DNA of 64,000 nucleotides, taken from the NCBI RefSeq assembly GCF_016765655.2, contig NZ_CP086106.1, positions 4,267,001 to 4,331,000 on the forward strand, in the 5' to 3' direction. The notes beneath the pieces were generated by a model, which had not been told where the DNA came from, did not search any database, and saw only the letters and a program-made list of their open reading frames with translations. This DNA comes from Skermanella mucosa. GTDB lineage: Bacteria > Pseudomonadota > Alphaproteobacteria > Azospirillales > Azospirillaceae. Position numbers and translations under genes: made by a program. This document shows, in pieces, positions 7,770 through 55,709 of this stretch (positions within the stretch are counted from its first letter, which is position 1; every line of letters starts with the position of its first letter).

Positions 7770-10229
7770 ATGAACATGATGGCAAGAACCAGGGAACGCC
7801 TCGTCGTCGTCGGCAACGGCATGGCCGGCATCCGCACCGTCGAGGAACTGCTCAAGCGCGATCCGGACCGCTACGACATCACGGTGTTCGGCGCGGAGCC
7901 CCACGTGAACTACAACCGCATCATGCTCTCCCCGGTGCTTGCCGGCGAGAAGACCTTCGACCAGATCATCCTCAACGACCGTTCCTGGTACGAACACAAC
8001 TGCATCACCCTGTTCACCGGCGAGAAGGTCGAGACCATCGACCGCGAGGCCCGCACGGTGACCTCGGCCGCCGGCCGGACCGTCGGTTACGACAAGCTGC
8101 TGCTGGCGACCGGGTCCATCCCCTTCATCATCCCGGTCGCCGGCCGCGGCCTGCCCGGCGTGGTGCCCTTCCGCGACATATCGGACGTGGAAGAGATGCT
8201 GAGGAGGGCCGCCGGGGGCGGCAGGCACGCCGTCGTCATCGGCGCCGGCCTGCTCGGCCTCGAAGCGGCCAACGGGCTGGCCGCCAACGGCATGGCCGTG
8301 ACCGTGATCCACCTGATGGGCACGATCATGGAGCGCCAGCTTGACGAGACGGCGGGCCTGATGCTCAAGGTCGAGCTTGCGGGCCGGGGCATCGACATCA
8401 TCACCGGCGCCACCACCGAGGCGATCCTCGGGGAGGACCGCGTCACCGGGGTGCTGCTGGAAGACGGCCGCGAGATACCGGCCGACATCGTCGTCATGGC
8501 GGTCGGCATTCGCCCCAGCACCAGCCTGGCCAAATCGGCCGGCATCGAGGTCGAGCGCGGCATCGTCGTCGACGACCACATGGTGACCTCCGATCCGGCC
8601 ATCCTGGCGGTCGGCGAATGCGTCGAGCACCGGGGAGCGGTATACGGCCTTGTCGCGCCGCTTTGGGACATGGCGCGCGTCTGCGCCGACCAGCTCACCG
8701 GCAACGCCGAATCCGCCTATGCCGGCACCGTCACCGGCACCAAGCTGAAGGTCACCGGCATCGACGTGTTCTCCGCCGGCAATTTCAACGGCGGCGAAGA
8801 CTGCGAGGAGATCGTCTTCCGCGACGACACCCGCGGCGTCTACAAGCGCATCAACGTCAAGGAGGACTTCATCGAAGGTGTCGTGCTGTATGGCGACACC
8901 AGGGACTCCGCCTGGTATTTCCAGATGCTCCGAGATGGGGAGAACATCGCGGCGATCCGCGACACCCTGATCTTCGGCCAGGGGGTCGGGGGAGCCGCCT
9001 CCGCCGATCCCAGGGCCGCCGTCGCCGCGCTCCCGGACAGTGCCGAGATCTGCGGCTGCAACGGCGTGTGCAAGGGCTCGATCACCAGGGCGATAGCGGA
9101 AAAGGGCTTGGCCACCCTGGAGGATGTCCGCGCCCACACCAAGGCCTCGGCCTCCTGCGGGAGCTGCACCGGGCTGGTCGAGCAGCTTCTGGAACTGTCG
9201 CTCGGCGACGAATACCAGGCCGCCGCGGCCGCCAAGCCCCTGTGCAAATGCACCCACCATCCCCACGACGACGTGCGCCGGCTGATCGTGGCGGGGGAGC
9301 TGAAGAGCATCCCGGCGGTGATGCGGGCGCTGGAATGGAAGACGCCCAACGGTTGCCACACCTGCCGGCCGGCGCTGAACTATTATCTGCTGGCGGCATG
9401 GCCGGGCGAGTACAAGGACGATTACCAGTCCCGCTTCATCAACGAGCGCGCCCACGCCAACATCCAGAAGGACGGCACGTATTCGGTCGTGCCGCGCATG
9501 TGGGGCGGCCTGACCTCCGCCAAGGAACTGCGGGCCATCGCCGACGTCGTGGACAAGTTCGCCATCCCGACGGTCAAGGTCACCGGCGGCCAGCGGATCG
9601 ACCTGTTCGGCGTGAGGAAGGAAGACCTTCCCGCCGTCTGGAAGGACCTGAACGACGCCGGCATGGTCTCCGGCCACGCCTATGCCAAGGGGCTGCGGAC
9701 CGTGAAGACCTGCGTCGGGTCCGAATGGTGCCGGTTCGGCACCCAGGACTCCACCGGCATGGGCGTCAAGCTGGAGCGGATGACCTGGGGCACCTGGACG
9801 CCGCACAAGGTCAAGCTGGCGGTGTCGGGCTGCCCGCGCAACTGCGCCGAGGCGACGATCAAGGATTTCGGCGTCGTCGCGGTGGACAGCGGCTGGGAGC
9901 TTTACGTCGCCGGCAACGGCGGCATGAAGGTCCGCGAATGCGACTTCCTGGCCAAGGTCGAGACCGAGGGGCAGGTGCTGGAATATTGCGGGGCCTTCCT
10001 TCAGCTCTACCGGGAAGAGGCCCGGTACCTGGACCGCACGGCGCCGTGGGTCGAGCGGGTCGGCCTCGACTATGTGAAGAAGCGGGTGGTCGATGACGGC
10101 GAGGGCCGCCGCGCCCTGTTCGCCCGCTTCCGGTTCTCGCAGGTGTTCTCGCAGACCGACCCGTGGGAGGAGCGCGCTTCCCAGGGCGTCGACTCCCATG
10201 AGTTCGCGTCGCTCGCGACGGTAGGGTGA
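7770..10229 (+). CDS. nirB: Assimilatory nitrite reductase [NAD(P)H], large subunit
   Basis: This 819-residue cytoplasmic enzyme reduces nitrite to ammonium. Domains in order are an N-terminal FAD/NAD-binding oxidoreductase (VVVGNGMAGIRT at the start; VIGAGLLGLEAANG for NAD), a BFD-type [2Fe-2S] domain with C428, C430, C463 and C466, a second BFD-like repeat (CKCTHHPHDDVRRL ... CHTC), then the ferredoxin-like and sulfite/nitrite-reductase domains. The [4Fe-4S]-sirohaem ligands are C648, C654, C688 and C692 (CVGSEWC and CPRNC). The ATG at 7770 follows a CCGGAG ribosome binding site. The downstream genes supply the small subunit, nitrate reductase and sirohaem synthase. Confidence 0.95.
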   Translation: MNMMARTRERLVVVGNGMAGIRTVEELLKRDPDRYDITVFGAEPHVNYNRIMLSPVLAGEKTFDQIILNDRSWYEHNCITLFTGEKVETIDREARTVTSAAGRTVGYDKLLLATGSIPFIIPVAGRGLPGVVPFRDISDVEEMLRRAAGGGRHAVVIGAGLLGLEAANGLAANGMAVTVIHLMGTIMERQLDETAGLMLKVELAGRGIDIITGATTEAILGEDRVTGVLLEDGREIPADIVVMAVGIRPSTSLAKSAGIEVERGIVVDDHMVTSDPAILAVGECVEHRGAVYGLVAPLWDMARVCADQLTGNAESAYAGTVTGTKLKVTGIDVFSAGNFNGGEDCEEIVFRDDTRGVYKRINVKEDFIEGVVLYGDTRDSAWYFQMLRDGENIAAIRDTLIFGQGVGGAASADPRAAVAALPDSAEICGCNGVCKGSITRAIAEKGLATLEDVRAHTKASASCGSCTGLVEQLLELSLGDEYQAAAAAKPLCKCTHHPHDDVRRLIVAGELKSIPAVMRALEWKTPNGCHTCRPALNYYLLAAWPGEYKDDYQSRFINERAHANIQKDGTYSVVPRMWGGLTSAKELRAIADVVDKFAIPTVKVTGGQRIDLFGVRKEDLPAVWKDLNDAGMVSGHAYAKGLRTVKTCVGSEWCRFGTQDSTGMGVKLERMTWGTWTPHKVKLAVSGCPRNCAEATIKDFGVVAVDSGWELYVAGNGGMKVRECDFLAKVETEGQVLEYCGAFLQLYREEARYLDRTAPWVERVGLDYVKKRVVDDGEGRRALFARFRFSQVFSQTDPWEERASQGVDSHEFASLATVG

Positions 10230-44167: not shown

Positions 44168-44442
44168 GTTTTTCTCCATTCCACGCACTGCATTATTTTA
44201 CGCGCACGGTCGATCATACCCAGGTGCACCGATAATTTCTTAGCACATACTGCGTAAAGCGAATGGCATGGTTTTCAGTGTCAGAAGACGGGCCATGCAA
44301 CAGTCGGGTTCCACCGCCCGCCGGCGCACCGCGGCCGTCTGGAACCAACCCCCCGCCCGCTCGTTGATGTCCCCGGACGCGCGCCACGCCGCGCATCCGC
44401 AGACATTTCTTCGACAAACAGCAACAGGCGCAGGGAACCCCA

Positions 44443-44817
44443 ATGGCCGACCGCGAAACGGACCGCGATATGGGCGCGGCGCACGATGCAGCCTCACGCC
44501 CCGATCCCGCCAAGACAGCCAGTGCCGACCCGATGGAGCGCGGCCATCTCCGGGACCAGATCGACAGCGGCAAGTTCCGCGACAAGGTGGCGGCACCCGA
44601 TCCGGCCACATCTCCGCTCGGCACCGACGACGAAGCGGCCGGCGTGCCGACCCCGGCCGCGAAGGTCCAGTACGAAAGCCCGGCCGCACCGGCCCATGCC
44701 CCGGCGAATTCCCATTCGCGGGATACGCCGCCGAGCCATCTCGGCCCGATGATCGCCGCCGGCATCGTCGTCGCCGCGTTCGTCATCGGGTTCATCATGA
44801 TCTTCTCGGCCGGCTGA
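44443..44817 (+). CDS. Small single-pass membrane protein, hypothetical
   Basis: This 124-residue protein has a long, charged and Pro/Ala-rich N-terminal region of about 100 residues with no clear fold, then a single C-terminal membrane helix (MIAAGIVVAAFVIGFIMIFS). It is probably tail-anchored in the inner membrane. AGGGA precedes the ATG. No family is recognised. It is 160 bases upstream of the saccharide cluster, but nothing in the sequence shows that it belongs to it. Confidence 0.6.
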   Translation: MADRETDRDMGAAHDAASRPDPAKTASADPMERGHLRDQIDSGKFRDKVAAPDPATSPLGTDDEAAGVPTPAAKVQYESPAAPAHAPANSHSRDTPPSHLGPMIAAGIVVAAFVIGFIMIFSAG

Positions 44818-44977
44818 GCGGCCTTAGCCGCCCGCCCCGATCCCGACGGCTCGCCGGAAGATCATAGGCGAGCCGTCCTACGCCTCTGCGCCGCACCATA
44901 CCCCGAAAGGGGGATTGGAACATCGACCGGCCGGATCCCGTTCTCCTCCTGGAAGAAAATCCGGGGAAAACAATCTT

Positions 44978-46096
44978 ATGTCAAAAAAGATACTCATCAC
45001 TGGCGGAGCCGGCTTCATAGGCTCGCATCTGGCCGACGAACTCATTGCCGCCGGCCATGAAGTCCGGGTTTTGGACAATTTATCCGAGCAGGTCCACGGC
45101 ACCAGCGGCGCCCGGCCGGAGTATCTGAGCCGTGACATCGAGCTGCGCGTCGGCGACGTGCGCGATCCGGCCGCGGTCAAGTCCGCGCTGCAAGGCATCG
45201 ATGCCGTCTATCACTTCGCCGCCATGGTCGGCGTGGGCCAGAGCATGTACCAGGTCGACGACTATGTCGGCGTCAACGATCTCGGCACCGCAGTGCTGCT
45301 CCAGGCGCTGATCGAGCGGCCTGTCGAGCGGCTGGTGGTCGCCAGCAGCATGAGCATCTACGGCGAAGGGCTGTATCGCGACATCAGGGGCGAGATCGTC
45401 ACCCCGGCCGAACGCAGCCTTTCCAGGCTGAAGGACGGAATGTGGGAGCCGCTCGGCCCGGACGGCGGCGAGATCACCCCTGTCCCGACGACGGAGGACA
45501 AGGCGCCGACGCTGTCGTCGATCTATGCGCTCAACAAATATGTGCAGGAGCGCATGTGCCTGATGATCGGGCAGGCCTATAATATCCCGACCGTCGCGAT
45601 GCGCTTCTTCAACGTGTTCGGCACCCGCCAGGCCCTTTCCAACCCCTATACGGGCGTGCTCGCGATCTTCGCCTCCCGGCTGCTCAACGGCAATCCGCCG
45701 ATGATCTTCGAGGACGGGCTGCAGCGCCGTGACTTCGTCCATGTGGCCGACGTGGCGCGCGCCTGCCATCTGGCGCTGAACGCCAGGGACGCCGCGGGCC
45801 AGGTCTTCAATGTCGGCAGCGGCGACAGCTACAGCGTGGTCGAGGTGGCGGAGCAACTCGCCGCCTCGCTCGGCAAGTCGCGCATCGCGCCGACGCTGAC
45901 CAGGAAGTTCCGCGTCGGCGACATCCGGCACTGCTTCGCCGACATCGGCAAGGCTCAGCGGCTACTGGGCTACCGGCCGGAGACGTCGCTGGCCGACGGC
46001 ATGGTCGAGCTGGCGGCCTGGCTCGACGGCCAGATCGCGGTGGACCGCGTAGATCAGGCGAGCCGTGAGCTGGCGGCCAGAGGATTGGCCGTATGA
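44978..46096 (+). CDS. NAD-dependent sugar epimerase/dehydratase
   Basis: This 372-residue extended SDR enzyme has the NAD site ILITGGAGFIGSHLADEL at the N-terminus and the active-site pair Y186 and K190 (SIYALNKYVQE). GTRQALSNPYTGVLAIFASR and RRDFVHVADVA are typical of nucleotide-sugar epimerases. It probably converts an NDP-sugar, but the substrate is not evident. It starts the seven-gene cluster, and its TGA overlaps the next ATG (ATGA). The ATG at 44978 is chosen since the Rossmann strand begins at once. An upstream in-frame start at 44915 would add 21 unconserved residues. Confidence 0.88.
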   Translation: MSKKILITGGAGFIGSHLADELIAAGHEVRVLDNLSEQVHGTSGARPEYLSRDIELRVGDVRDPAAVKSALQGIDAVYHFAAMVGVGQSMYQVDDYVGVNDLGTAVLLQALIERPVERLVVASSMSIYGEGLYRDIRGEIVTPAERSLSRLKDGMWEPLGPDGGEITPVPTTEDKAPTLSSIYALNKYVQERMCLMIGQAYNIPTVAMRFFNVFGTRQALSNPYTGVLAIFASRLLNGNPPMIFEDGLQRRDFVHVADVARACHLALNARDAAGQVFNVGSGDSYSVVEVAEQLAASLGKSRIAPTLTRKFRVGDIRHCFADIGKAQRLLGYRPETSLADGMVELAAWLDGQIAVDRVDQASRELAARGLAV

Positions 46097-48018
46097 TGGG
46101 CGACCGGGATACCCCCAGGGATCTGCCCGCAACCATGCCAGGCTTCACCGAGACCTTCCGACCCGACGACCGGGACGGCGCCGAACGGACCGTGGCGACG
46201 CTGAAGCAGCTGGGCGTCCGCCGCCTGCGCGTTCCGGTCGGTGACGACGCCCCGGCCGATGGCTGGTGCGGCTGGCTGCTCCCGCGCCTCGCGGCGGAAT
46301 TCGACCTGCTGCCGGCCCTCGCCCTCGGCGAGCCCGATGCAGTCGGTGGTATCGGAAAACTCCTGGCGGCCTTGCCCGCCCTGGAGTGGGTCGAGATCGC
46401 CGCCGCGCCGGGACGATCGCCGGCCATCGCGGAGGCCGCCGCCACGATCCGGCGGGACGGCCGCAAGGTGGTGCTGAGCGGCCTGGGTCCGGCGGCCCTG
46501 GAACTCCTCGCCCGGCAGGGCGGCCTCGACGACATCGACGCCGTCGGCATCGGGGCGTTCCCCGGCACCGGCGACACCTCCTGGCCGGGTTGGGAAGCGG
46601 TCGTCGGGGAATACGCGCAGGCTGTGGCCGCGACCGGCCGCGCTCCCGCCCTGTGGATCACCGGCACCGGCTTCTCCACCTGGCGCCATGACGAGCGCGG
46701 CCAGATCAGGGCCTTCCTCGCCGCGACCGAGGCCCCGGCGGACCGGGTCTACTGGTCGTCGCTCCAGGACCTCGCCCCGGACGAGGCCAGCGCCCAGGGC
46801 TTCCACGCGGACGAGCGAGATTACGCGCTGGGCGTGCTCCGCGCCGATGGTTCGCCCAAGCTGCTCGGCCGACTGCTGGAGCGGGGCGGCATCGCGGCGG
46901 TCCGGTCGGTGGACCGCCTGGGCCGTCCCGGTTCGCCCCGTCCGGCGACGGGCAGCACGGGCAAGCCCGTCGTCATCACGGGCGGTGCCGGCTTCATCGG
47001 GACCAACCTGGCCGACCGACTGGTCCGCGAGGGCCATCGGGTCATCGTCTACGACAACCTGTCGCGCCCCGGCGTCGAGCAGAACATCGACTGGCTGAAA
47101 TCGACCCACGGCAGCGCCGTCAGTTTCGAACTAGCCGACATCCGCGATCCCCACGTGCTCCGCGAGGCGGTCGCCCAGGCCGGCAAGATGTTCCACTTCG
47201 CGGCCCAGGTCGCCGTGACCACCAGCCTGGTGGACCCGATCACCGATTTCGAGATCAACGCCCGGGGCACGGTGAACCTGCTGGAGGCGATGCGGGCCCA
47301 GGCCGAGCCGCCTCCCCTGGTGTTCACCTCGACCAACAAAGTCTACGGCAAGCTGGCCGACCTGGAGCTGCGGCTGGAAGCCGAGCGCTACGCCCCGGCC
47401 GACCCGGAGATCCGCGCCCGCGGCATCGACGAGTCGCGTCCGCTGGACTTCTACAGTCCCTACGGCGCGTCGAAGGGCAGCGCCGACCAGTATGTGCTGG
47501 ACTATTCCCGTACCTACGACCTGCCGACCGTGGTCTTCCGCATGAGCTGCATCTACGGTCCCCACCAGTTCGGCACCGAGGACCAGGGCTGGGTCGCCCA
47601 TTTCCTGATCCGCGCGCTGGACGGGGAACCGATCACCCTGTACGGCGACGGCTGCCAAGTCCGCGACATCCTGTTCGTCGAGGATCTGGTCGACGCCTTC
47701 CTCGCCGCGCAGGAACATATGCCGGCGATCCGGGGGCAGGCTTTCAACATCGGCGGCGGACCCGCGAACGCGACCAGCCTGGTCGAGCTGCTGGAAAGGA
47801 TCGGATCGGCCTCCGGCCGCCATCCCGACATCAGCTTCGGCCCCTGGCGGCCGGGCGACCAGCTTTATTACGTCTCCGACACGGCCAAGTTCGCCGCCGC
47901 CACCGGATGGCGGGCGCGGGTCGGGATCGCCGAGGGAATCGCGCGCCTGTCCGGCTGGCTGACCGAAAACCGTATCGCCGGCGCCGAGGCGCCCGTCCTG
48001 AGGAGGGCGGCATCATGA
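46093..48018 (+). CDS. Fusion: glycoside-hydrolase-like domain plus NAD-dependent epimerase
   Basis: This 641-residue two-part protein has N-terminal residues 1 to about 285 that resemble a TIM-barrel glycoside hydrolase (GWCGWLLPRLAAEFDLLPAL; APALWITGTGFSTWRHDERG; RVYWSSLQDL). The place where clan-A enzymes often carry the nucleophile Glu reads ITGTGF, so activity is doubtful. From about residue 293 an extended SDR domain follows (VVITGGAGFIGTNLADRL; YGASKGSADQY with Y457 and K461; FRMSCIYGPHQFGTEDQGWV), close to CDP-paratose/tyvelose 2-epimerases. It is coupled to both neighbours by ATGA overlaps. The fusion suggests that one protein both makes and trims or senses the sugar; this is inference. 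Confidence 0.8.
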   Translation: MMGDRDTPRDLPATMPGFTETFRPDDRDGAERTVATLKQLGVRRLRVPVGDDAPADGWCGWLLPRLAAEFDLLPALALGEPDAVGGIGKLLAALPALEWVEIAAAPGRSPAIAEAAATIRRDGRKVVLSGLGPAALELLARQGGLDDIDAVGIGAFPGTGDTSWPGWEAVVGEYAQAVAATGRAPALWITGTGFSTWRHDERGQIRAFLAATEAPADRVYWSSLQDLAPDEASAQGFHADERDYALGVLRADGSPKLLGRLLERGGIAAVRSVDRLGRPGSPRPATGSTGKPVVITGGAGFIGTNLADRLVREGHRVIVYDNLSRPGVEQNIDWLKSTHGSAVSFELADIRDPHVLREAVAQAGKMFHFAAQVAVTTSLVDPITDFEINARGTVNLLEAMRAQAEPPPLVFTSTNKVYGKLADLELRLEAERYAPADPEIRARGIDESRPLDFYSPYGASKGSADQYVLDYSRTYDLPTVVFRMSCIYGPHQFGTEDQGWVAHFLIRALDGEPITLYGDGCQVRDILFVEDLVDAFLAAQEHMPAIRGQAFNIGGGPANATSLVELLERIGSASGRHPDISFGPWRPGDQLYYVSDTAKFAAATGWRARVGIAEGIARLSGWLTENRIAGAEAPVLRRAAS

Positions 48019-49319
48019 AGTTCGCCCTGATCAACCCGAACTGGAACTTCGACGGCAGCATCTATTTCGGCTGCCGCGAGCCGCACCTGCCGCTGGAGTA
48101 CGGCTACTCCAAGGCCCTGATCGAGCGCGCCGGCCACGAGGCGGTGATCATCGACGGCCAGCTGATGGACCTCGACCTGGACGGGATTCGCGCCAGGGTC
48201 GCCGAGTACGCGCCCGACTTCACCGTGGTCACCACCGCGCCCAGCTACCTGTTCTGGCGCTGCGCCCCGCCGGAACTGCGGATCCCGCAGGAGGTGCTGA
48301 AGGCGGTCGGAGACGTCGGCGGGACGCTGGTCGCGGTCGGGCCGCACGGCTCGACCACGCCGCGGGCGGCCTATGCCAAGCTGGGGGTCGACGTGGTCGT
48401 GATGGGCGAGTGCGAGGAACTTCTTCCCCGCCTCGCCGACGAGTCGTGGGACGCCATCCCGTCGATCTGCTTCGGGCCGCGCGACAACCCCAAGGTCAAC
48501 GGCGGCCCCTTCGCCTCGCGCTTCACCGATCTGCCGGCGCTGTCCTGGCCCGACGAGTGGGTCACCCGCCACCATCACCACCATCACCGTTTCGACATCG
48601 ATCCGAATGGTCCCCGGCCCGGTCCGGGAGGGGAGATGGAGACCTCGCGCGGGTGCCCCTACCGCTGCTCCTTCTGCGCCAAGGAGAATTTCCGCGACAA
48701 GTACCGCAAGCGCCCGCTCCCCGTCGTCCTGGAGGAGCTGGACAGGCTGATCGCGCAGGGCGTCGAGTATGTCTATTTCATCGACGAGATCTTCCTGCCC
48801 AACGCCGAGCTGCTGGAAGCGCTGGTCGAACGCAGGATCAAGTTCGGCGTCCAGACCCGCATCGACCTGTGGAAGGAGCCGATGCTGGAGCTGCTCGGCC
48901 GGGCCGGCTGCGTCTCGATCGAGGCGGGAGTCGAGAGCCTGACGCCGGAGGGGCGCCAGGCACTGGACAAGAACTGCCGCATGTCGACCGAGGAGCTGAC
49001 CGACCGGCTGATCTTCGCCAAGCGGCACGTCGCCTTCGTCCAGGCCAACCTGATCGAGGCCGGCACCGACGACGACGGCATGGTCGAAGCGTGGCGGAAA
49101 CGGCTGCTGGAACACGGCGTCTGGGCCAACGAGCCCGTGCCGCTGTTCCCCTATCCCGGCTCGCCGGACTACCGGAAGCTCTGGGGCCTGCCGGACGACC
49201 AGGCGTGGGAACGCGCCCTCGACCACTACCTGACCCACCACGTGGATTTCAGCGACATCCAGGACCAGCGCCCGCTGCCGCTGCGCGAACTGGAGCTGGC
49301 CGCCCCGGACATGCGCTGA
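48015..49319 (+). CDS. B12-binding-domain radical SAM protein of the saccharide cluster
   Basis: This 434-residue protein has a cobalamin-binding-like N-terminal domain (residues 1 to about 140, FALINPNW ... VVVMGECEELLPRLAD). There is no DxHxxG lower-ligand motif. A radical SAM domain follows with C214, C218 and C221 (RGCPYRCSFCAKENF) holding the [4Fe-4S] cluster. A natural run of six histidines (residues 186-191, flanked by Arg) joins the two domains. It starts by ATGA overlap with the epimerase fusion. Such enzymes often do methylations or rearrangements on unactivated carbons, so a sugar or lipid-linked sugar may be the substrate. I recall similar proteins in a rhizobial polysaccharide cluster (the rhizo-twelve type), which I could not verify. 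Confidence 0.85.
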   Translation: MKFALINPNWNFDGSIYFGCREPHLPLEYGYSKALIERAGHEAVIIDGQLMDLDLDGIRARVAEYAPDFTVVTTAPSYLFWRCAPPELRIPQEVLKAVGDVGGTLVAVGPHGSTTPRAAYAKLGVDVVVMGECEELLPRLADESWDAIPSICFGPRDNPKVNGGPFASRFTDLPALSWPDEWVTRHHHHHHRFDIDPNGPRPGPGGEMETSRGCPYRCSFCAKENFRDKYRKRPLPVVLEELDRLIAQGVEYVYFIDEIFLPNAELLEALVERRIKFGVQTRIDLWKEPMLELLGRAGCVSIEAGVESLTPEGRQALDKNCRMSTEELTDRLIFAKRHVAFVQANLIEAGTDDDGMVEAWRKRLLEHGVWANEPVPLFPYPGSPDYRKLWGLPDDQAWERALDHYLTHHVDFSDIQDQRPLPLRELELAAPDMR

Positions 49320-49321
49320 CC

Positions 49322-50494
49322 ATGGTTCCCGCATCGGGCTCTCCGCGCAGAGTGTTGATGACGGCCGACGCCGTCGGCGGCGTCTGGGACTATGCCCTGG
49401 AACTGGCCGGCGGTCTGGCGCGGCGCGGTGTCCGCGTTACCCTGGCGGTGATGGGGCCGGCGCCTTCCCCGGCGCAGCGCGCCCGGGCGGTCGCGATCCC
49501 CGGCCTGGGGCTGCACCACGGCGATTTCAGGCTGGAATGGATGGAGCGTCCGGAAGACGACCTGACCGCCGCCGGCGACTGGCTGCTCGACCTTGCGGAG
49601 CGCGTGGCGCCCGATCTGGTCCATCTCAACGGCTATGCCCATGCGGCGCTGCCTTGGGGACGGCCGGTCGTCGCGGTCGCCCATTCCTGCGTGCTGTCCT
49701 GGTGGCAGGCCGTCCACGGATGTCCGGCCCCGGCGGAGTGGCGGCCCTATGCCGGGCGGGTCGCGGCCGGCCTGGCGTCGGCGGATCGGGTGGTGGCCCC
49801 GACCCAGGCCATGCTCGACGCGCTGGAAACCCATTACGGGCCGGTCCCGCACGGCCGCGTGGTCTGGAACGGACGGGACGGAGGCGCGTGGCACCCCCGG
49901 CCGGACCGGGAGCCCACGGTCATCAGCGTGGGGCGGATCTGGGACGAGGCCAAGAACATCCGCGCCCTCGACGGCGTCGCCGCCGGACTGGACTGGCCGG
50001 TGGTGGTCGCCGGCTCCTGGCGGCACCCGGACGGGCGGCACCCGGACGGGCGGAGCCCGGAAGGCGATGCCCTGCCGGCGAACCTGCGGCTCCTGGGCCA
50101 TCTCCGCCCCGACGAGCTGGCCGACCGGTACGGACGGGCGGCGGTCTTCGCCCTGCCCGCCCGGTACGAGCCGTTCGGACTGTCGATCCTGGAGGCCGCG
50201 CTGTCCGGCTGCGCCCTGGTGCTGGGCGACGTGCCGAGCCTGCGCGAGCTGTGGACCGGAGCCGCGGTTTTCGTCGCCCCGGACGATCCGGCCGCCCTGG
50301 CGCGCGAACTGCGGCGGATGGCCGCGGATCCCGCACACCTGCTGGCGCTCGCCACCGCCGCGCGCCAGCGCGCACGCAGTTATGGCACGGAACGCATGGT
50401 CGCGCGTTATCTCGACGTCTATGCCGACCTGCTGGACGCGCCGCGCTCGATCCCGCTTCACCGCGATGGCGCCGCCGTACCGCTGGAACGCTGA
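49322..50494 (+). CDS. GT4-type glycosyltransferase of the saccharide cluster
   Basis: This 390-residue GT-B enzyme has the N-terminal TADAVGGVWDYALELAGGLARRG acceptor-side motif, donor-side VISVGRIWDEAKNIRAL, and PARYEPFGLSILEAALSGC, where the two Glu of the EX7E motif lie. Enzymes like this use nucleotide sugars with retention. It starts two bases after the radical SAM gene, so it belongs to the operon. An in-frame 15-base tandem repeat (RHPDG RHPDG RSPEG) interrupts the donor domain near residue 235. That insertion may vary in length between strains. Confidence 0.87.
   Translation: MVPASGSPRRVLMTADAVGGVWDYALELAGGLARRGVRVTLAVMGPAPSPAQRARAVAIPGLGLHHGDFRLEWMERPEDDLTAAGDWLLDLAERVAPDLVHLNGYAHAALPWGRPVVAVAHSCVLSWWQAVHGCPAPAEWRPYAGRVAAGLASADRVVAPTQAMLDALETHYGPVPHGRVVWNGRDGGAWHPRPDREPTVISVGRIWDEAKNIRALDGVAAGLDWPVVVAGSWRHPDGRHPDGRSPEGDALPANLRLLGHLRPDELADRYGRAAVFALPARYEPFGLSILEAALSGCALVLGDVPSLRELWTGAAVFVAPDDPAALARELRRMAADPAHLLALATAARQRARSYGTERMVARYLDVYADLLDAPRSIPLHRDGAAVPLER
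50021..50065 (+). repeat. In-frame 15-base tandem repeat within the GT4 gene
   Basis: CGGCACCCGGACGGG occurs twice exactly (50021-50035 and 50036-50050), followed by a diverged third copy, CGGAGCCCGGAAGGC (50051-50065). It encodes RHPDG-RHPDG-RSPEG. Copy-number change would keep the frame. Confidence 0.85.
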
Positions 50495-50503
50495 CTCGAC
50501 GCC

Positions 50504-50535
50504 GTTCTTCAAGCCAAGCGTTCTTCAAGCCAAGC
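50504..50535 (+). repeat. Perfect 16-base tandem duplication before the first CgeB-like gene
   Basis: GTTCTTCAAGCCAAGC is repeated exactly at 50504-50519 and 50520-50535, just upstream of a GGAG ribosome binding site (50536-50539). It makes most of the 49-base gap between two otherwise tightly packed genes. Confidence 0.85.
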
Positions 50536-50543
50536 GGAGACCC

Positions 50544-51662
50544 ATGCGCTTCGTCTATTTCACCCATTCGCTGGTGTCCGACTGGAATCACGGCAACGCC
50601 CACTTCCTGCGCGGCGTGATCCGGGAACTGACCGCCCGCGGCCATCAGGTCCAGGTGTTCGAGCCGCGCAACGGCTGGAGCCTGCAGAACCTGATCGCCG
50701 ACCAGGGAGCCGAGGCGGTCGCCCGCTTCGCCGCCGTCTTCCCCGGCTTCGGCTCCACCAGCTACGATCCTGCCACCCTGGACCTGGACCGCGCGCTGGA
50801 CGGTGCCGATGTCGTGATCGTCCACGAATGGAACGACCATGACCTGGTGGCGAACATCGGCCGCAAGCGGGCCGCCGGCGGGCGCTTCCAGCTGCTGTTC
50901 CACGATACCCATCATCGTTCCGTCACCGATCCGAAGTCGATGGCGGCCTACGACCTGACGGCGTACGACGGCGTGCTGGCCTACGGCGCCGTGATCCGGG
51001 AGATCTATCTCAGCATGGGCTGGGGCCGGCGCGCCTGGACCTGGCACGAGGCGGCGGACACCGCCCTGTTCCGCCCGCTGCCCGGCCGCCCCCGCGAGGG
51101 CGACCTGGTGTGGGTCGGCAATTGGGGCGACGGCGAGCGCTCGATCGAGCTGGGCGAGTTCCTGTTGCTGCCGATCCGCCAGCTCAAGCTGAAGGCGCGG
51201 ATCCACGGCGTGCGCTATCCCGCCGACGCCAAGGCGGCCATCGCGCTGGCCGGGGCCGAGTATGCCGGATACCTGCCCAACCACGAGGCCCCCGAGGCCT
51301 TCGCCCGGTTCCCGGTGACGGTCCACGTGCCGCGGCGCCCCTATGTCGAGACGCTGCGCGGCATCCCGACCATCCGCCCCTTCGAGGCCCTGGCCTGCGG
51401 CATCCCGCTGGTCTGCTCGCCCTGGGACGACGCCGAGGGACTGTTCCGCCCCGGCAGCGACTACCTGATAGCCCGTGACGGTACCGAAATGACCAAGCAC
51501 CTCCGAGATGTCCTCAACGATCTCGACCTCGCCGCATCGCTCGCGCGGAGCGGCTACGAGACGATCCAGTCCCGTCACACCTGCGGCCACCGGGTCGACG
51601 AGCTGCTGGAGATCTGCCGCGGCCTGAAGCAGGAAAGACCCCTGTTGCAGGAGGCCCGCTGA
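50544..51662 (+). CDS. CgeB-like glycosyltransferase 1
   Basis: This 372-residue protein of the CgeB/GT-B type starts RFVYFTHSLVSDWNHGNAHF and continues RGVIRELTARGHQVQVFEPR, with a C-terminal donor half containing IPTIRPFEALACGIPLVCSPW and ending in a family-typical HTCGHRVDELLEI. These proteins are predicted glycosyltransferases; the donor is unknown. GGAG lies four bases before the ATG. It is the first of three related genes in a row, suggesting sequential sugar additions to one chain. The next gene overlaps its stop by one base. Confidence 0.8.
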   Translation: MRFVYFTHSLVSDWNHGNAHFLRGVIRELTARGHQVQVFEPRNGWSLQNLIADQGAEAVARFAAVFPGFGSTSYDPATLDLDRALDGADVVIVHEWNDHDLVANIGRKRAAGGRFQLLFHDTHHRSVTDPKSMAAYDLTAYDGVLAYGAVIREIYLSMGWGRRAWTWHEAADTALFRPLPGRPREGDLVWVGNWGDGERSIELGEFLLLPIRQLKLKARIHGVRYPADAKAAIALAGAEYAGYLPNHEAPEAFARFPVTVHVPRRPYVETLRGIPTIRPFEALACGIPLVCSPWDDAEGLFRPGSDYLIARDGTEMTKHLRDVLNDLDLAASLARSGYETIQSRHTCGHRVDELLEICRGLKQERPLLQEAR

Positions 51663-52759
51663 TGGCCGGCCTCGACATCTCCTTCTACGGGTCCAGCCTG
51701 GTCTCGGCCTACTGGAACGGCGCCGCGACCTATTACCGGGGCATCATCCGGGCCCTGGCGGCGCGCGGTCACCGCGTGACCTTCTTCGAGCCGGATGCCT
51801 ATGGGCGCCAGCAGCACCGCGACATCCCCGATCCCGACTGGGCGCGGGTGGTGGTCTACCCCAACGACGAGGCGAGCGCCCGCCGGGCGCTGGAACAGGG
51901 CCGCAACGCCGACGTGATCGTCAAGGCCAGCGGCGTCGGGGTGTTCGACGGCCTGCTGGAGGCCGGCGTGCTCGACGTGCGGCGCCCGGACGCCACCGTG
52001 ATCTTCTGGGACGTGGACGCTCCGGCGACCCTGGCGTCAATGCGGGAGAACCCCGGCGACACGCTGCGCCCGCTGATTCCCCGCTACGACATGGTGCTGA
52101 CCTACGGTGGCGGCGACCCGGTGATCCGAGCCTACCGCGAGGTCGGCGCGCGGGACTGCGTGCCGATCTACAACGCCCTGGACCCCGACACCCACCACCC
52201 GGTGCCGGCCGACCCGCGCTTCGCCGCCGACCTGGGCTTCATGGCGAACCGCCTTCCCGACCGCGAGGCGCGGGTCGAGGAATTCTTCCTGAAGGCCGCC
52301 GCGGCGCTGCCCGGCCGGCGTTTCCTGCTGGGCGGCAACGGCTGGGGCGACAAGCCGATGCCGGGCAACGTCAATTATATCGGCCACGTCTATACCGCCG
52401 ACCACAACGCCGTGAACTGCTCCGCGCTGGCCGTGCTGAACGTTGCCCGCGACAGCATGGCCGCCGTCGGCTTCTCGCCGGCCACCCGCGTGTTCGAGGC
52501 GGCGGGAGCCGGCGCCTGCGTGATCACCGACGCCTGGGAAGGAATCGAACAGTTCCTGATCCCCGGCGAGGAGATCCTGGTGGCGCGCGATGGCGCCGAG
52601 GTCGCGGCCCATGTGGACGCGCTGACGCCCGAGCGGTCCCGCGCCATCGGCGAGGCGGCCCGGCGCCGCATGCTCGACGCCCACACCTACGCCCACCGCG
52701 CCGGGGAGGTCGAGGCCCTGCTGGTGAACGGCGCCCATGCCGGGCGGGTCCCGGCATGA
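51662..52759 (+). CDS. CgeB-like glycosyltransferase 2
   Basis: This 365-residue GT-B protein is of the same type as its neighbours. The N-terminal motif is ISFYGSSLVSAYWNGAATYY followed by RGIIRALAARGHRVTFFEPD, the middle has NALDPDTHHPV, and the donor half contains FSPATRVFEAAGAGACVITD and HTYAHRAGEVEALL. The start ATG overlaps the previous stop by one base, and its own stop overlaps the next ATG in an ATGA junction. The substrates are unknown. Paralogy with the flanking genes is visible from shared motifs, not from an alignment. Confidence 0.8.
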   Translation: MAGLDISFYGSSLVSAYWNGAATYYRGIIRALAARGHRVTFFEPDAYGRQQHRDIPDPDWARVVVYPNDEASARRALEQGRNADVIVKASGVGVFDGLLEAGVLDVRRPDATVIFWDVDAPATLASMRENPGDTLRPLIPRYDMVLTYGGGDPVIRAYREVGARDCVPIYNALDPDTHHPVPADPRFAADLGFMANRLPDREARVEEFFLKAAAALPGRRFLLGGNGWGDKPMPGNVNYIGHVYTADHNAVNCSALAVLNVARDSMAAVGFSPATRVFEAAGAGACVITDAWEGIEQFLIPGEEILVARDGAEVAAHVDALTPERSRAIGEAARRRMLDAHTYAHRAGEVEALLVNGAHAGRVPA

Positions 52760-53880
52760 CCGGGATCGTCTACGGGCGCATGGCCGAACGGGCGGCCGGG
52801 CTGTCGATCGTCGTCCTCGGCCTCAGCATCACGTCGTCCTGGGGCAACGGCCACGCGACCACGTACCGGGCGCTGGTCAAGGCCCTTTCCGACCGCGGCC
52901 ACGACGTGCTGTTCCTGGAAGCCGACCGCCCCTGGTACGCCGCCCACCGCGACCTGGCGGAGCCGCCCTTCTGCCGGACCGCGCTGTACCAGGATCTGGA
53001 GGACCTTCGCGATCGGTTCACCCGGGAGGTCCGCGACGCCGACCTGGTGATCGTCGGGTCCTTCGTTCCGGACGGCGTCGATGTCGGCGGCTGGGCGATC
53101 CGGACCGCGCGCGGCGTCACGGCCTTCTACGACATCGACACCCCGGTGACGCTGGCGAAGCTGGAACGCGGCGACGTCGAGTATCTGAGCCCAGACCTGA
53201 TCCCGCGCTACGACATCTACCTGTCTTTCACCGGCGGTCCGACCCTCGGGCGGCTGGAGAGGCAGTTCGGCTCGCCGATGGCCCGCGCGCTCTACTGCTC
53301 GGTCGATCCCGAGCGGTACTATCCGGAAACGGGAATCGGCCCGGGGTGGGACCTGGGGTATCTCGGCACCTACAGCCCCGACCGCCAACCGACGGTGGAC
53401 CGGCTGCTGGTGGAACCGGCTCGGGCCTGGGCGGAGGGGAGATTCGTGGTCGCCGGGCCGCAGTATCCGGAAACCATCGGCTGGCCCGGCAACGTCGAAC
53501 GGGTCGACCACCTGCCGCCGGACCAGCATCGCGCCTTCTACAACGCCCAGCGATTCACGCTTAACGTGACGCGGGCCGACATGATCGCGGCCGGGTGGTC
53601 GCCCAGCGTCCGGCTGTTCGAGGCGGCAGCGTGCGGGACGCCGATCATCAGCGACTGGTGGCCGGGCCTGGACGGCCTGTTCGAGCCAGGCACGGAGATC
53701 ATCATCGCGGCGGATGCCGGAGCCGTGCTCGAAACCCTGCGATCCATGTCCGATGGTCACCGTCAGGCGATCGGCGAACGGGCGCGTTCGCGGATCCTCG
53801 CCAACCACACGGCGGCACACCGCGCGGCCGAGCTGGAAATGTTCGTCGCGGAAGCGCGGGCGGCCGTTTCCACCGCGTGA
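52756..53880 (+). CDS. CgeB-like glycosyltransferase 3
   Basis: This 374-residue GT-B protein has the N-terminal motif VVLGLSITSSWGNGHATTYR followed by ALVKALSDRGHDVLFLEADR, the middle CSVDPERYYPE, and the donor half with WSPSVRLFEAAACGTPIISD and NHTAAHRAAELE. It is the third of the series and the last gene of the cluster. It overlaps the preceding gene by four bases and is followed by a GC-rich hairpin. Like the other two it may add one residue of a repeating or capped oligosaccharide. Confidence 0.8.
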   Translation: MTGIVYGRMAERAAGLSIVVLGLSITSSWGNGHATTYRALVKALSDRGHDVLFLEADRPWYAAHRDLAEPPFCRTALYQDLEDLRDRFTREVRDADLVIVGSFVPDGVDVGGWAIRTARGVTAFYDIDTPVTLAKLERGDVEYLSPDLIPRYDIYLSFTGGPTLGRLERQFGSPMARALYCSVDPERYYPETGIGPGWDLGYLGTYSPDRQPTVDRLLVEPARAWAEGRFVVAGPQYPETIGWPGNVERVDHLPPDQHRAFYNAQRFTLNVTRADMIAAGWSPSVRLFEAAACGTPIISDWWPGLDGLFEPGTEIIIAADAGAVLETLRSMSDGHRQAIGERARSRILANHTAAHRAAELEMFVAEARAAVSTA

Positions 53881-53924: not shown

Positions 53925-54090
53925 CCCTTTGCCCCCGGATCAGCAGTCCGAATAACCGGGCGGCCACGCTCCGTCAAAGACGTATCCCGATAATGGCACG
54001 CCACCGGTGCGGGTTGAATCTGTTTCTATGTGCCGGGAATTTTAGGTAAAATGGAAATGTATTCGAGCAGCCGCAATTTTGAGAAAAAAG

Positions 54091-54729
54091 ATGGAATCCA
54101 AGGTTGAGCATGACGGCACGCGTCTTCGCAACTACCGGATGATGAAGAACATCACCCTGACGAAAGCCGCCGGCATGTGCGGCGTATCGAAGAGCGAGTT
54201 GTCCAAGCTGGAATCCGGGGCGCGCCCCATCCGGCCCGACCATGTGATCAAGCTGGCCGGGGTCTATGGGATCACCCCGCTCGACCTGCTGACACCGGAC
54301 AGCAAGCTGCGCGCCTTCATCGAGCGAGCCACCGATACGCCCCTCCACCAGCACGAGATCCCGCTGTTCGAAGGCCGGACGCTCTCCGCCCGGCAGAATG
54401 ACGCGGTTCCGACCGGCAAGGTCCCCTGCCCGATCCAACTGGTCGACGTGCCGGGCGCCTATGCGGTCAGCATCGGCGACATGGCCAACGCCCCGGCACT
54501 CCTGCCCGGCGTGATACTGCACATCCACCCGCAGCGTCCGGTCGTCATCAACGATCTGGTCATCAACCGCGTGACCTGGTCCCCGCTGGTGTTCTTCCTG
54601 CGGCAATCCGACGACGGGGACCTTTACGGCCTGACCTTGTCGAAGAAGCGCGTCGATCTGGACCGCGACGCGATCGACCTGCTCCACAAGGTGGCGGGAG
54701 TCTGGATGATCAACGGCCCGCGCGAGTGA
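54091..54729 (+). CDS. XRE-family regulator with S24-like C-terminal domain, probably non-cleaving
   Basis: This 212-residue protein has an N-terminal helix-turn-helix of the Cro/cI type (RLRNYRMMKNITLTKAAGMC; VSKSELSKLESGARPI) over residues 8-65. A C-terminal part resembles the LexA/cI S24 fold (AYAVSIGDMANAPALLPGVI). The S24 catalytic serine motif GDSM is replaced by GDMA, so self-cleavage is unlikely. The ATG at 54091 is preceded only by a weak AAAAAG; a TTG at 54079 is in frame. The preceding region is AT-rich. No phage structural genes are near. A second S24-like regulator follows at 55080. Confidence 0.75.
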   Translation: MESKVEHDGTRLRNYRMMKNITLTKAAGMCGVSKSELSKLESGARPIRPDHVIKLAGVYGITPLDLLTPDSKLRAFIERATDTPLHQHEIPLFEGRTLSARQNDAVPTGKVPCPIQLVDVPGAYAVSIGDMANAPALLPGVILHIHPQRPVVINDLVINRVTWSPLVFFLRQSDDGDLYGLTLSKKRVDLDRDAIDLLHKVAGVWMINGPRE

Positions 54730-55079: not shown

Positions 55080-55709
55080 ATGAAAATGGTCTTGGATGGC
55101 GCGGATGGTCATCGCCAGTCGGTTCTTGCCCTGATCAGGACCAAGAGCACTTTAAAGGCCGCCAGCATCGCCTGCGGCAGAAATCACGGCTACTTCCATC
55201 AATATCTGTTCCAAAGCAAGCCGCGCTTCCTCCCGGAAGACGTGCGGATCAAGTTGGCTCAGTACCTGGGAATAGGAGAAAGCCGGCTGCGTGAACCGGA
55301 ATTGCTTGTTTCGGCGGAAATGCCGGTTTCCGCCTCCGCTGAAACGCGCCCCAGACTGATGGTTTACGGACGGGCATCCGATCTGGAGATCGACATGACC
55401 TCGCCGGTCGCCGAGACCGAGCGGCCGGCCACGCTGGCCCATGTGATCGACGCCTTCGCCGCTTATGTCCACGATGGGGCGCTCAGCCCATGCCTGCCGG
55501 TCGGCAGCCTGGTCTATGTCGATCCGAGCAAGCCGTTGCGGCCTGGCGATTTCGTCCTGGTCAAGCAGGCTACCACCGCCCGGATCGCGGTGTTCCGCGG
55601 AAGGAACGCCGATGGCGTCATCCTGGATTTCGGCGGCGGGCGGGAGGAATCGATGGGTATCGGGCGGTCGGCCGCCATCTGCAAGATCGTCGGTGCCGAC
55701 TATCCCTGA
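55080..55709 (+). CDS. S24/LexA-fold regulator-like protein lacking the catalytic serine
   Basis: This 209-residue protein has an N-terminal region (STLKAASIACGRNHGYFHQY ... LPEDVRIKLAQYLGIGESRL) that looks like a short DNA-binding helical domain. The C-terminal part aligns with the S24 peptidase fold: DGALSPCLPVGSLVYVDPSK and PLRPGDFVLVKQ match the LexA pattern DGDSM-x-P-x-x-x-x-GDLVLVD, with Ala where the nucleophile Ser would be. It may therefore sense a signal without self-cleavage. The start ATG at 55080 follows GGGGGCAG. It overlaps the convergent kinase gene by ten bases. Confidence 0.72.
   Translation: MKMVLDGADGHRQSVLALIRTKSTLKAASIACGRNHGYFHQYLFQSKPRFLPEDVRIKLAQYLGIGESRLREPELLVSAEMPVSASAETRPRLMVYGRASDLEIDMTSPVAETERPATLAHVIDAFAAYVHDGALSPCLPVGSLVYVDPSKPLRPGDFVLVKQATTARIAVFRGRNADGVILDFGGGREESMGIGRSAAICKIVGADYP

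Follow-up and report, generated by a model that had tools for sequence, protein, structure and literature searches.

Several described systems resemble parts of a saccharide gene cluster of Skermanella mucosa. Mycobacterial methylglucose and methylmannose polysaccharides are intracellular; their clusters encode transferases, methyltransferases and a hydrolase but no export genes and, to our knowledge, no radical SAM enzyme. Likeness between these clusters and the present one lies in described gene types and in the logic of an intracellular glycan. In the pathway to bacteriohopanetetrol cyclitol ether, as set out in PMC12583986, the glycosyltransferase HpnI, the deacetylase HpnK and the radical SAM enzyme HpnJ act on a sugar in sequence. 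The same three enzyme types were noted here, but the Hpn system has three genes and a lipid acceptor, and the 19 NCBIfam families matched by the radical SAM protein of the cluster did not include HpnJ by name. Bradyrhizose was described from photosynthetic strains, the ORS285 cluster being an 11-gene gdh cluster. The Skermanella cluster appears to form the centre of a bacterial pathway for sugar assembly that is widely conserved and has so far not been described.

Seven open reading frames (P1 to P7) occupied positions 44978-53880 on the plus strand of the window (i.e., the whole stretch of 64,000 nucleotides that was analysed). Four of the six junctions were overlaps (4, 4, 1 and 4 bases) and the other two were gaps of 2 and 49 bases, in agreement with the first-pass annotation of a seven-gene cluster joined mostly by overlaps of 1-4 bases. 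The families named there (epimerases, a radical SAM enzyme, a GT4 transferase and three further glycosyltransferases) were borne out by profile matches. Thus, P1 (44978..46096) was an NAD-dependent sugar epimerase/dehydratase, the closest named solved relatives of which were 4-epimerases, P2 (46093..48018) was a fusion of an N-terminal PslG-like glycosidase domain and a C-terminal CDP-tyvelose-2-epimerase-like domain, P3 (48015..49319) was a radical SAM protein of TIGR04295 (B12_rSAM_oligo) and P4 (49322..50494) was a GT4 glycosyltransferase above cut-off for PF13439, PF00534 and PF13692. The glycosyltransferases P5 (50544..51662), P6 (51662..52759) and P7 (52756..53880) matched PF13524 with 118.7, 144.3 and 136.5 bits, respectively, all above the cut-off of 25 bits. 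These three had been described as paralogous and CgeB-like, a label that we take to denote PF13524 proteins; common family membership and the relation between P6 and P7 (35% identity) stood, whereas P5 was more remote (25-27%). P7 was also 48% identical to a PF13524 transferase of the C4 locus in the same genome. The claimed lack of a flippase, polymerase or export gene held for 44978-53880, in that profile matches of the seven proteins included no flippase, polymerase, priming transferase or ABC export gene. Genes for export may be present at other places in this genome.

The assignment of P3 to TIGR04295 was evident from a score of 729.5 bits (curated cut-off 400) over profile positions 1-422 of 422. 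In an alignment of 25 sequences, the cysteines of the CxxxCxxC cluster motif (C214, C218 and C221) were invariant and a run of histidines at residues 186-191 was conserved. The B12-binding Pfam PF02310 scored 26.5 bits, below its cut-off of 32.1, and the P3 profile matched 6wte, a tryptophan C2-methyltransferase with a B12-binding domain, across profile positions 26-355 (E 4.6e-11). Four solved radical SAM relatives were found, among them the methyltransferases 6wte and 7kdx (TokK) and the apramycin enzyme 6fd2. TIGR04295 stands in NCBIfam as a hypothetical equivalog with no assigned reaction, and a search of open-licence literature returned no paper that named it.

Conservation was assessed among the best 80 of 127 loci found. 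Of 71 loci with sufficiently long flanks, 63, from three phyla, kept the order P1-P2C-P3-P5-P6-P7 (where P2C is the C-terminal part of P2), at median identities of 57-65% for these proteins, which argues that the cluster is more than a chance association. Among the same best 80 loci, relatives were noted for P1 in 76, P2C in 77, P4 in 78 (median identity 45%), P5 in 75, P6 in 73 and P7 in 70. Only partial order was seen in cyanobacterial loci, none of which had the complete order. Conservation as a unit, which the first-pass annotation had named as a test, was thus found, and the reading of one conserved saccharide unit with a probably B12-type radical SAM enzyme was supported. Comparable sets, noted earlier for rhizobia, were confirmed in Bradyrhizobium and extended to Azospirillum, Methylobacterium and others, and no characterised pathway that matched the cluster was found in the data searched.

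Two further loci of this genome contained nine genes with relatives in the cassettes of other genomes. These loci were INO1-HisP-TIGR04290-GHx (INO1, histidine phosphatase, methyltransferase and glycosidase) and GTx-NTPT-LmbE-GT4-GNAT (glycosyltransferase, nucleotidyltransferase, deacetylase, GT4 transferase and GNAT). The notion that the seven genes are a complete pathway was rejected on account of these two loci; the reading of a saccharide unit stood as to conservation, the radical SAM enzyme and the absence of a transport gene but not as to the seven genes being the whole system. The seven genes are predicted to be the core only, with the parts found here split across three loci. The methyltransferase TIGR04290 was the result of the proposed search for a co-conserved methyltransferase elsewhere. 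In a class set of 230 genomes, TIGR04295 was present in 10, TIGR04290 in 11 and both in 10 (i.e., TIGR04290 in 10 of 10 genomes with TIGR04295 as opposed to 1 of 220 without). Adjacency alone does not account for this co-occurrence, since the two genes were on different contigs or 554 kb apart in 3 of the 10 genomes. Among 28 further cluster-holding genomes, TIGR04290 was found in 24 and the glycosidase domain in all 28, the latter being present in 8 genomes of the class set, all within the 10 with TIGR04295. Only 44 of 82 stretches, and none of the 4 cyanobacterial loci, contained INO1 (flanks of up to 10 kb), so that inositol is possibly not a universal part. A UDP-glucuronate decarboxylase-like gene (E 3.5e-108) was present in 49 of 82 stretches, PIG-L deacetylase genes in 6 and GNAT genes in 5; in the accessory loci of this genome, the PIG-L deacetylase scored 72.8 bits for PF02585 and the GNATs 128.4 bits for PF13480. 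For the nucleotidyltransferase of this genome, the class set of 230 yielded a close relative in just one other genome. Judged by sequence, the cluster, TIGR04290 and the PslG-like glycosidase are one system, with the predicted addition of INO1, the histidine phosphatase and the UDP-glucuronate decarboxylase-like enzyme in many genomes and of the nucleotidyltransferase, PIG-L deacetylase and GNAT acyltransferase in fewer.

The N-terminal domain of P2 (approximately 46093-46959) gave no Pfam match at E 0.01; a profile search and the fold of an intact relative (L025) placed it in a family of PslG-like TIM-barrel domains. Among solved structures, PslG (5bx9) gave the fused-domain family its best sequence-profile match (E 2.3e-5) and was also the best match to the fold of the intact L025 copy (Foldseek E 5.5e-15, TM 0.73). 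The alignment used for this placement included the window copy, whereas the fold evidence is that of L025, to which the window copy is 42% identical, though shorter. The C-terminal part (46960-48015) was an NAD-dependent epimerase/dehydratase that matched 1orr (E 1.7e-76) and 9rl0 (E 3.5e-79). In contrast with PslG, the glycosidase domain here forms a fusion with an epimerase or gives way to a circular permutant, has no apparent signal-like N-terminus and, in the window copy, has both catalytic glutamates replaced, by A and G (L019, in which P1 and P2 were joined mid-gene, was excluded from the catalytic-residue count). A live hydrolase in P2 was therefore rejected; the half that had been called hydrolase-like is related to PslG-like glycosidases but lacks both catalytic glutamates. 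GHx, a stand-alone relative of this domain encoded elsewhere in the genome (L100:10013-10900), retained both (WNEPN and SEVG present) and, on the evidence of its sequence, is a circular permutant of the fused domain. The predicted model of GHx was an eight-stranded barrel with the WNEPN strand first (pLDDT 89.9). No Pfam match and no good match in a fold search were noted for GHx, the latter as expected of an order-dependent aligner and not counted as proof of permutation. Among the genomes searched, intact fused domains occurred only where no stand-alone copy was found. The glycosidase step here would be carried out by the permuted stand-alone enzyme, with the fused domain of P2 as a decayed relic. 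We suggest, as a possibility rather than a probability, that the pathway makes an undescribed class of general-stress glycan and that its glycosidase step passed from the epimerase-fused domain to a permuted clan GH-A enzyme encoded elsewhere, such that in permutant-bearing genomes both catalytic residues of the fused domain were free to be lost and exactly one working copy was kept. The permutant may be a transglycosylase in assembly rather than a hydrolase.

A link to the general stress response was suggested by a consensus motif for a predicted sigma-EcfG promoter (GGAAC-N17-CGTT, 44917..44942, plus strand), 61 bp upstream of the start of P1. The motif has the published form of PhyR-NepR-EcfG regulons, and a PhyR gene was present in this genome (NF006623, 309.7 bits, cut-off 240). 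An ECF sigma/anti-sigma pair at C1:2111 kb was rejected as a proven EcfG-NepR pair owing to a marginal NepR match (26.8 bits against a cut-off of 25.7; NCBIfam NepR, 26.6 of 100). Genome-wide, the motif gave 127 matches as opposed to 63 for the reversed pattern. Of 65 alphaproteobacterial loci, the window included and L041 excluded as a contig-end artefact, 44 had the strict form (GGAAC-N16/17-CGTT) before P1 or INO1, and none of 13 other loci did; upstream of other predicted open reading frames in the same alphaproteobacterial loci, it was noted in 17 of 693. Without 25 related Bradyrhizobium loci, the count was 19 of 40. The strict motif was absent before both genes in 21 of the 65 loci (17 with a looser pattern), including the 7 Methylobacterium/Methylorubrum loci tested and all 4 Belnapia loci, of which L047 had the looser form. 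In a later set of nine plasmid-borne records, the motif was found in 2 (3 when relaxed) and in 0 of 5 from Azospirillum plasmids. No published EcfG-type regulon that lists this operon was found in the literature searched, passages of PMC6599016 and PMC8103513 included, the main text of PMC4814048 contained no occurrence of "radical SAM", "glycosyl" or "inositol", and no connection of TIGR04295 to TIGR04290, the glycosidase and EcfG was found in the literature searched.

The explanation that we favour, with confidence a little short of even, is that a cytosolic pathway for the assembly of a heteroglycan (oligosaccharide) has these seven genes as its core, that it belongs to the general stress response in many hosts and that its product most likely protects against stress as a soluble compound within the cell. 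INO1 and the phosphatase would supply inositol as the likely acceptor, P1 and P2C, together with the decarboxylase and nucleotidyltransferase where present, would provide unusual NDP-sugars and P4 to P7 would add sugars successively. The chain would then be modified by P3, probably through cobalamin-dependent C-methylation or rearrangement, and by TIGR04290 through O-methylation, while the glycosidase would trim or transfer. Our best reading of the product is a stress-induced, cytosolic heteroglycan of inositol/xylose type with a radical-SAM modification; to judge from how many transferases there are and from the lack of a polymerase, it would be short. A simple scan of hydropathy revealed no membrane-like segment in any of 16 pathway proteins (highest 19-residue mean 1.61, as opposed to 2.83 in a membrane-segment control), and no linked carrier, flippase or export gene was seen, which together argue that the product is most likely soluble and intracellular. 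No support was found for the glycolipid that the first-pass annotation had offered as one possible product.

The lack of membrane-like segments in all 16 proteins also speaks against a somewhat unlikely alternative, namely a glycan or glycolipid bound to the cell surface (a capsule, an LPS decoration or an oligosaccharide with a lipid anchor) served by a shared flippase or export system encoded elsewhere. Clusters for envelope glycans typically combine several transferases with NDP-sugar enzymes, and the glycosidase domain was nearest to PslG of the Psl exopolysaccharide operon; PslG itself, however, acts outside the cytoplasm, which counts against a surface product here. EcfG-dependent genes of S. 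melonis, as listed in PMC6599016, include glycosyltransferases and an exopolysaccharide biosynthesis protein, in favour of a surface glycan, whereas no carrier, flippase, polymerase, ABC exporter or priming transferase was noted among the identified cassette families or annotated neighbours, many neighbours being without an assigned family. Less probable again, and in our view clearly unlikely, is a small glycosylated metabolite, such as an inositol-containing pseudo-oligosaccharide or signal of mycothiol- or aminoglycoside-like logic, in place of a bulk protectant. The INO1, GT4, PIG-L and GNAT genes of the accessory loci and the solved methyltransferase and apramycin relatives of P3 would fit such a product, but the rarity of PIG-L and GNAT among the 82 stretches, the lack of an aminotransferase, ligase or thiol-forming enzyme among the identified cassette families and a number of glycosyltransferases (four to six) above that of mycothiol-type pathways argue against it. 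That the rhizobial version is the O-antigen cluster for bradyrhizose, an inositol-fused sugar, with similar sugars made by the others, is very improbable since, despite the fit of INO1 and a radical SAM enzyme to such a sugar and a best NCBIfam match of P2 and the decarboxylase, below cut-off, to a dTDP-glucose dehydratase model, bradyrhizose has been described in photosynthetic strains whereas the cassette occurs in many other Bradyrhizobium and three other phyla, and the L037-type cassette has 15 genes as opposed to 11.

In the favoured explanation, a cytosolic heteroglycan pathway that may be part of the general stress response in many hosts, TIGR04295 and TIGR04290, families with no known reaction, become parts of one testable pathway, and general stress becomes the condition under which to seek the product in soil and plant-associated bacteria. 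If true, the circularly permuted glycosidase, together with a fused copy that decayed in mirror-image fashion, would make a clear example from nature of a TIM-barrel enzyme supplanted by its own permuted form. Should the product prove to be a new stress-protective glycan, it would bear on survival of drying and salt by Azospirillum, Bradyrhizobium, their relatives and the cyanobacteria that hold the cluster.

The seven-gene, same-strand cluster proposed in the first-pass annotation was borne out at 44978-53880, in a window that spans C1:4267001-4331000 of a genome of 7.84 Mb and five contigs; overlaps, claimed for most of its gene junctions, were present at four of the six (4, 4, 1 and 4 bases), the other two junctions being gaps of 2 and 49 bases. 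The first gene, P1, encodes an NAD-dependent epimerase/dehydratase with 4-epimerases as nearest named solved relatives, P2 a fusion protein whose C-terminal part (P2C) was nearest to CDP-tyvelose 2-epimerase (E 3.5e-79 and 1.7e-76), P3 a TIGR04295 radical SAM protein (729.5 bits; 90% identical to its counterpart in Skermanella stibiiresistens), P4 a GT4 enzyme and P5-P7 PF13524 transferases. C-methylation by P3 is what we infer, as are reaction order, acceptor, sugars and a role in stress protection; the data themselves show gene content, conservation, co-occurrence, the promoter motif, the lost catalytic residues and, at the sequence level, the permutation described below. Between its B12-type and radical SAM parts, P3 contains a natural run of six histidines (residues 186-191, window 48570-48587), possibly a metal or cofactor site, of which H186, H188, H190 and H191 were invariant among 25 members from four phyla. 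By eye, an HPDGR stretch was seen repeated within P4 (about 50020-50060), and between P4 and P5 (50504-50535) GTTCTTCAAGCCAAGC was seen as two exact tandem copies. Downstream of the cluster lie ORF 54079-54729, which by eye looks like a helix-turn-helix regulator, and ORF 55080-55709.

A P3 search of genome contigs returned 127 relatives, of which the best 80 were kept; they come from alphaproteobacteria, cyanobacteria, Acidobacteriota and Sorangium. Of the 71 loci among them with sufficient flanks, 63 have the order P1-P2C-P3-P5-P6-P7. These 63 loci were alphaproteobacterial, acidobacterial and myxobacterial, and 62 of them held a P4 match. The eight exceptions (L019, L020, L025, L034, L038, L054, L074 and L087) either lacked at least one gene within the limits used or had P5 moved. 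None of the four cyanobacterial loci had the complete order, three being exceptions and the fourth (L026) ending too early. When 50 P3 sequences were placed on a tree, the 36 Pseudomonadota were set apart from the 13 sequences of other phyla by a single branch (support 97/96). In L019, from a metagenome-assembled genome, P1 is joined to P2 midway through both genes (about 8012-8030), probably through a deletion or an error in assembly. Azospirillum plasmids L106, L111 and L112 have a single epimerase gene annotated ahead of TIGR04295, with a 37-base gap, so one of the two core epimerases can be absent from the locus.

Cassettes of Bradyrhizobium (e.g., locus L037) carry, upstream of the core, genes for inositol-phosphate synthase (INO1), a histidine phosphatase, a fourth PF13524 transferase (GTx), a nucleotidyltransferase (NTPT), a TIGR04290 methyltransferase, a stand-alone glycosidase-like protein (GHx) and phosphopentomutase, and downstream of it a UDP-glucuronate decarboxylase-like enzyme. 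Over 82 stretches (i.e., 80 loci, locus L092 of the S. mucosa genome and the window), TIGR04290 was present in 53, GTx-like genes in 52 (some being P7 itself at 42-47%), GHx in 50, the decarboxylase in 49, INO1 and the phosphatase in 44 each, NTPT in 34, phosphopentomutase in 26, a PIG-L deacetylase in 6 and GNAT in 5. In the S. mucosa genome, GTx (64% to L037), NTPT (65%), a PIG-L deacetylase, GT4 and GNATs occur on contig C4 at about 129.6-134.3 kb, and INO1 (67%), the phosphatase (45%), TIGR04290 (63%) and GHx (73%) are consecutive on contig C1 at about 3.76 Mb; the parts located here make up one system at three loci. No membrane-like segment was found in the 16 pathway proteins scanned from this genome (highest 19-residue mean 1.61, against 2.83 for a control protein beside the cluster), and no export gene was seen among the neighbour families identified. 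Two plasmids of Bradyrhizobium sp. 195 (L113 and L114), typed as conjugative, hold one cassette copy of 15 genes apiece; treZ (trehalose synthesis) lies next to one of these copies.

A sample of 230 genomes spanning the class yielded TIGR04290 in 11 genomes and TIGR04295 in 10. Every one of these 10 also held TIGR04290, and in three of them the two genes were on separate contigs or 554 kb apart. The eleventh TIGR04290 genome (G137), in which TIGR04295 was not found, is 83% complete. The glycosidase domain was detected in eight genomes of this set, all within the ten with TIGR04295, and not in G071 and G159 at the threshold used. Of the other genomes in this set, G147 alone held a close relative of the S. 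mucosa NTPT (67%), and NTPT is thus not a universal part; matches at 35-36% came from three further genomes, all without TIGR04295. TIGR04290 was also present in 24 of 28 further cluster-holding genomes, being missing for L020, L026, L074 and L082.

No Pfam family matched the N-terminal stretch of P2, which is about 285 residues long. A profile of 12 relatives of this domain found PslG (5bx9, E 2.3e-5), which was also the best fold match for a predicted model of the intact L025 relative (pLDDT 83.8; Foldseek E 5.5e-15, TM 0.73). Enzymes of clan GH-A use two glutamates, and in intact relatives these sites lie in WNEPN and W-(I/L)-T-E. Both glutamates were present in the fused copies of L020, L022, L023, L025, L026, L028 and L074, and both sites were changed in those of the window (A/G), L012 (T/A), L040 (Q/Q), L048 (R/A) and L079 (D/Q); L019 was not scorable and was left out. 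Among plasmid records, the Tistrella and Geminicoccaceae fused copies were intact. With the S. mucosa GHx as query, the domain was found in 28 of 28 genomes (that of L025 not being among those covered), a stand-alone copy, with identity of 70% or more, being present in 21 and a fused copy only in 7. The residues were intact in all six scorable fused-only genomes (L020, L022, L023, L026, L028 and L074) and lost from the fused copy in all four of the 28 in which a fused relic was recognised alongside a stand-alone copy (L012, L040, L048 and L079), as in the window's own genome, where GHx is likewise present.

By sequence comparison, GHx is a circular permutant of the fused domain, beginning at the start of that domain's fourth strand and ending with its first third. 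When 5 intact fused domains were each compared with 4 GHx, rotation of the fused domain raised global alignment scores in all 20 pairs, from 241-301 to 363-432, the best cut lying 0-16 residues ahead of LWNEPN. For shuffled sequences, rotated at every fifteenth residue, the maxima averaged 19-24 and did not exceed 59. The window's decayed copy gave no such cut (linear 76-105, best 96-120). The same swap was seen in the HSP order of the 28-genome search, and a start codon stands immediately ahead of the GHx start point in 49 of 50 loci with GHx located, the exception (L045) running off its contig. The predicted GHx model (pLDDT 89.9) has eight strands, the WNEPN strand first, and order-dependent Foldseek returned nothing that matched it well (best E 9e-4, TM 0.36), a result that agrees with permutation and is not proof of it.

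The exact spacer of sigma-EcfG promoters is N16-17. GGAAC-N17-CGTT was read at 44917-44942, 61 bp upstream of the P1 ATG, a form that agrees with published sigma-EcfG (general stress) promoters (PMC6599016; PMC8103513). Of 65 alphaproteobacterial loci that could be tested, the window among them, 44 had the strict motif in the 250 bp ahead of P1 or INO1 (19 of 40 without 25 Bradyrhizobium loci), usually about 61 bp from P1 and 83 bp from INO1. As a control, it preceded 17 of 693 other predicted ORFs of these alphaproteobacterial loci, and none of 13 loci of other phyla had it. With a looser pattern, 48 of the 65 loci scored, or 23 of the 40 without Bradyrhizobium. The strict motif was not found upstream of either gene in the Methylobacterium, Methylorubrum and Belnapia loci tested. 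In nine plasmid-borne records, a set independent of motif discovery, it occurred in only two, both plasmids of one Bradyrhizobium strain, and a looser form in a third record; Azospirillum plasmids had none (0 of 5). The EcfG link is thus strong in many lineages and absent from others. In the S. mucosa genome, only weaker forms stand at the other two loci, 157 bp upstream of INO1 (GGAAC-N16-TGTT) and, at the C4 locus, 122 bp upstream of GTx (GGAAC-N17-GGTT), and PhyR, response regulator of the general stress pathway, is encoded (PF22233, 53.5 bits; NF006623, 309.7 bits against a cut-off of 240). Tistrella mobilis has, immediately upstream of P1, an ECF sigma gene that also matches PF22029 (PhyR sigma2, 54.4 bits), although no motif stands upstream of P1 in this record. 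A second strict motif (N16, 44341-44365) lies upstream of small ORF 44443-44817, which has one membrane-like segment; in S. stibiiresistens a motif (L012:6330) and a 124-aa ORF (L012:6432) hold like positions. Locus L095 of the S. mucosa genome (C1:2107500-2114500) encodes an ECF sigma factor and a small protein that matches NepR marginally, and it has two strict EcfG-type motifs, which share that strand.

Both TIGR04295 and TIGR04290 are classed in NCBIfam as 'hypothetical equivalogs', and neither these families nor their model names were mentioned in the open-licence papers searched, a body that mostly excludes subscription papers; within the same scope nothing was found on CgeB, radical SAM and glycosyltransferase together. 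As a glycan assembly cassette it stands out by the unusual history of its enzymes, and its role may be stress-protective.
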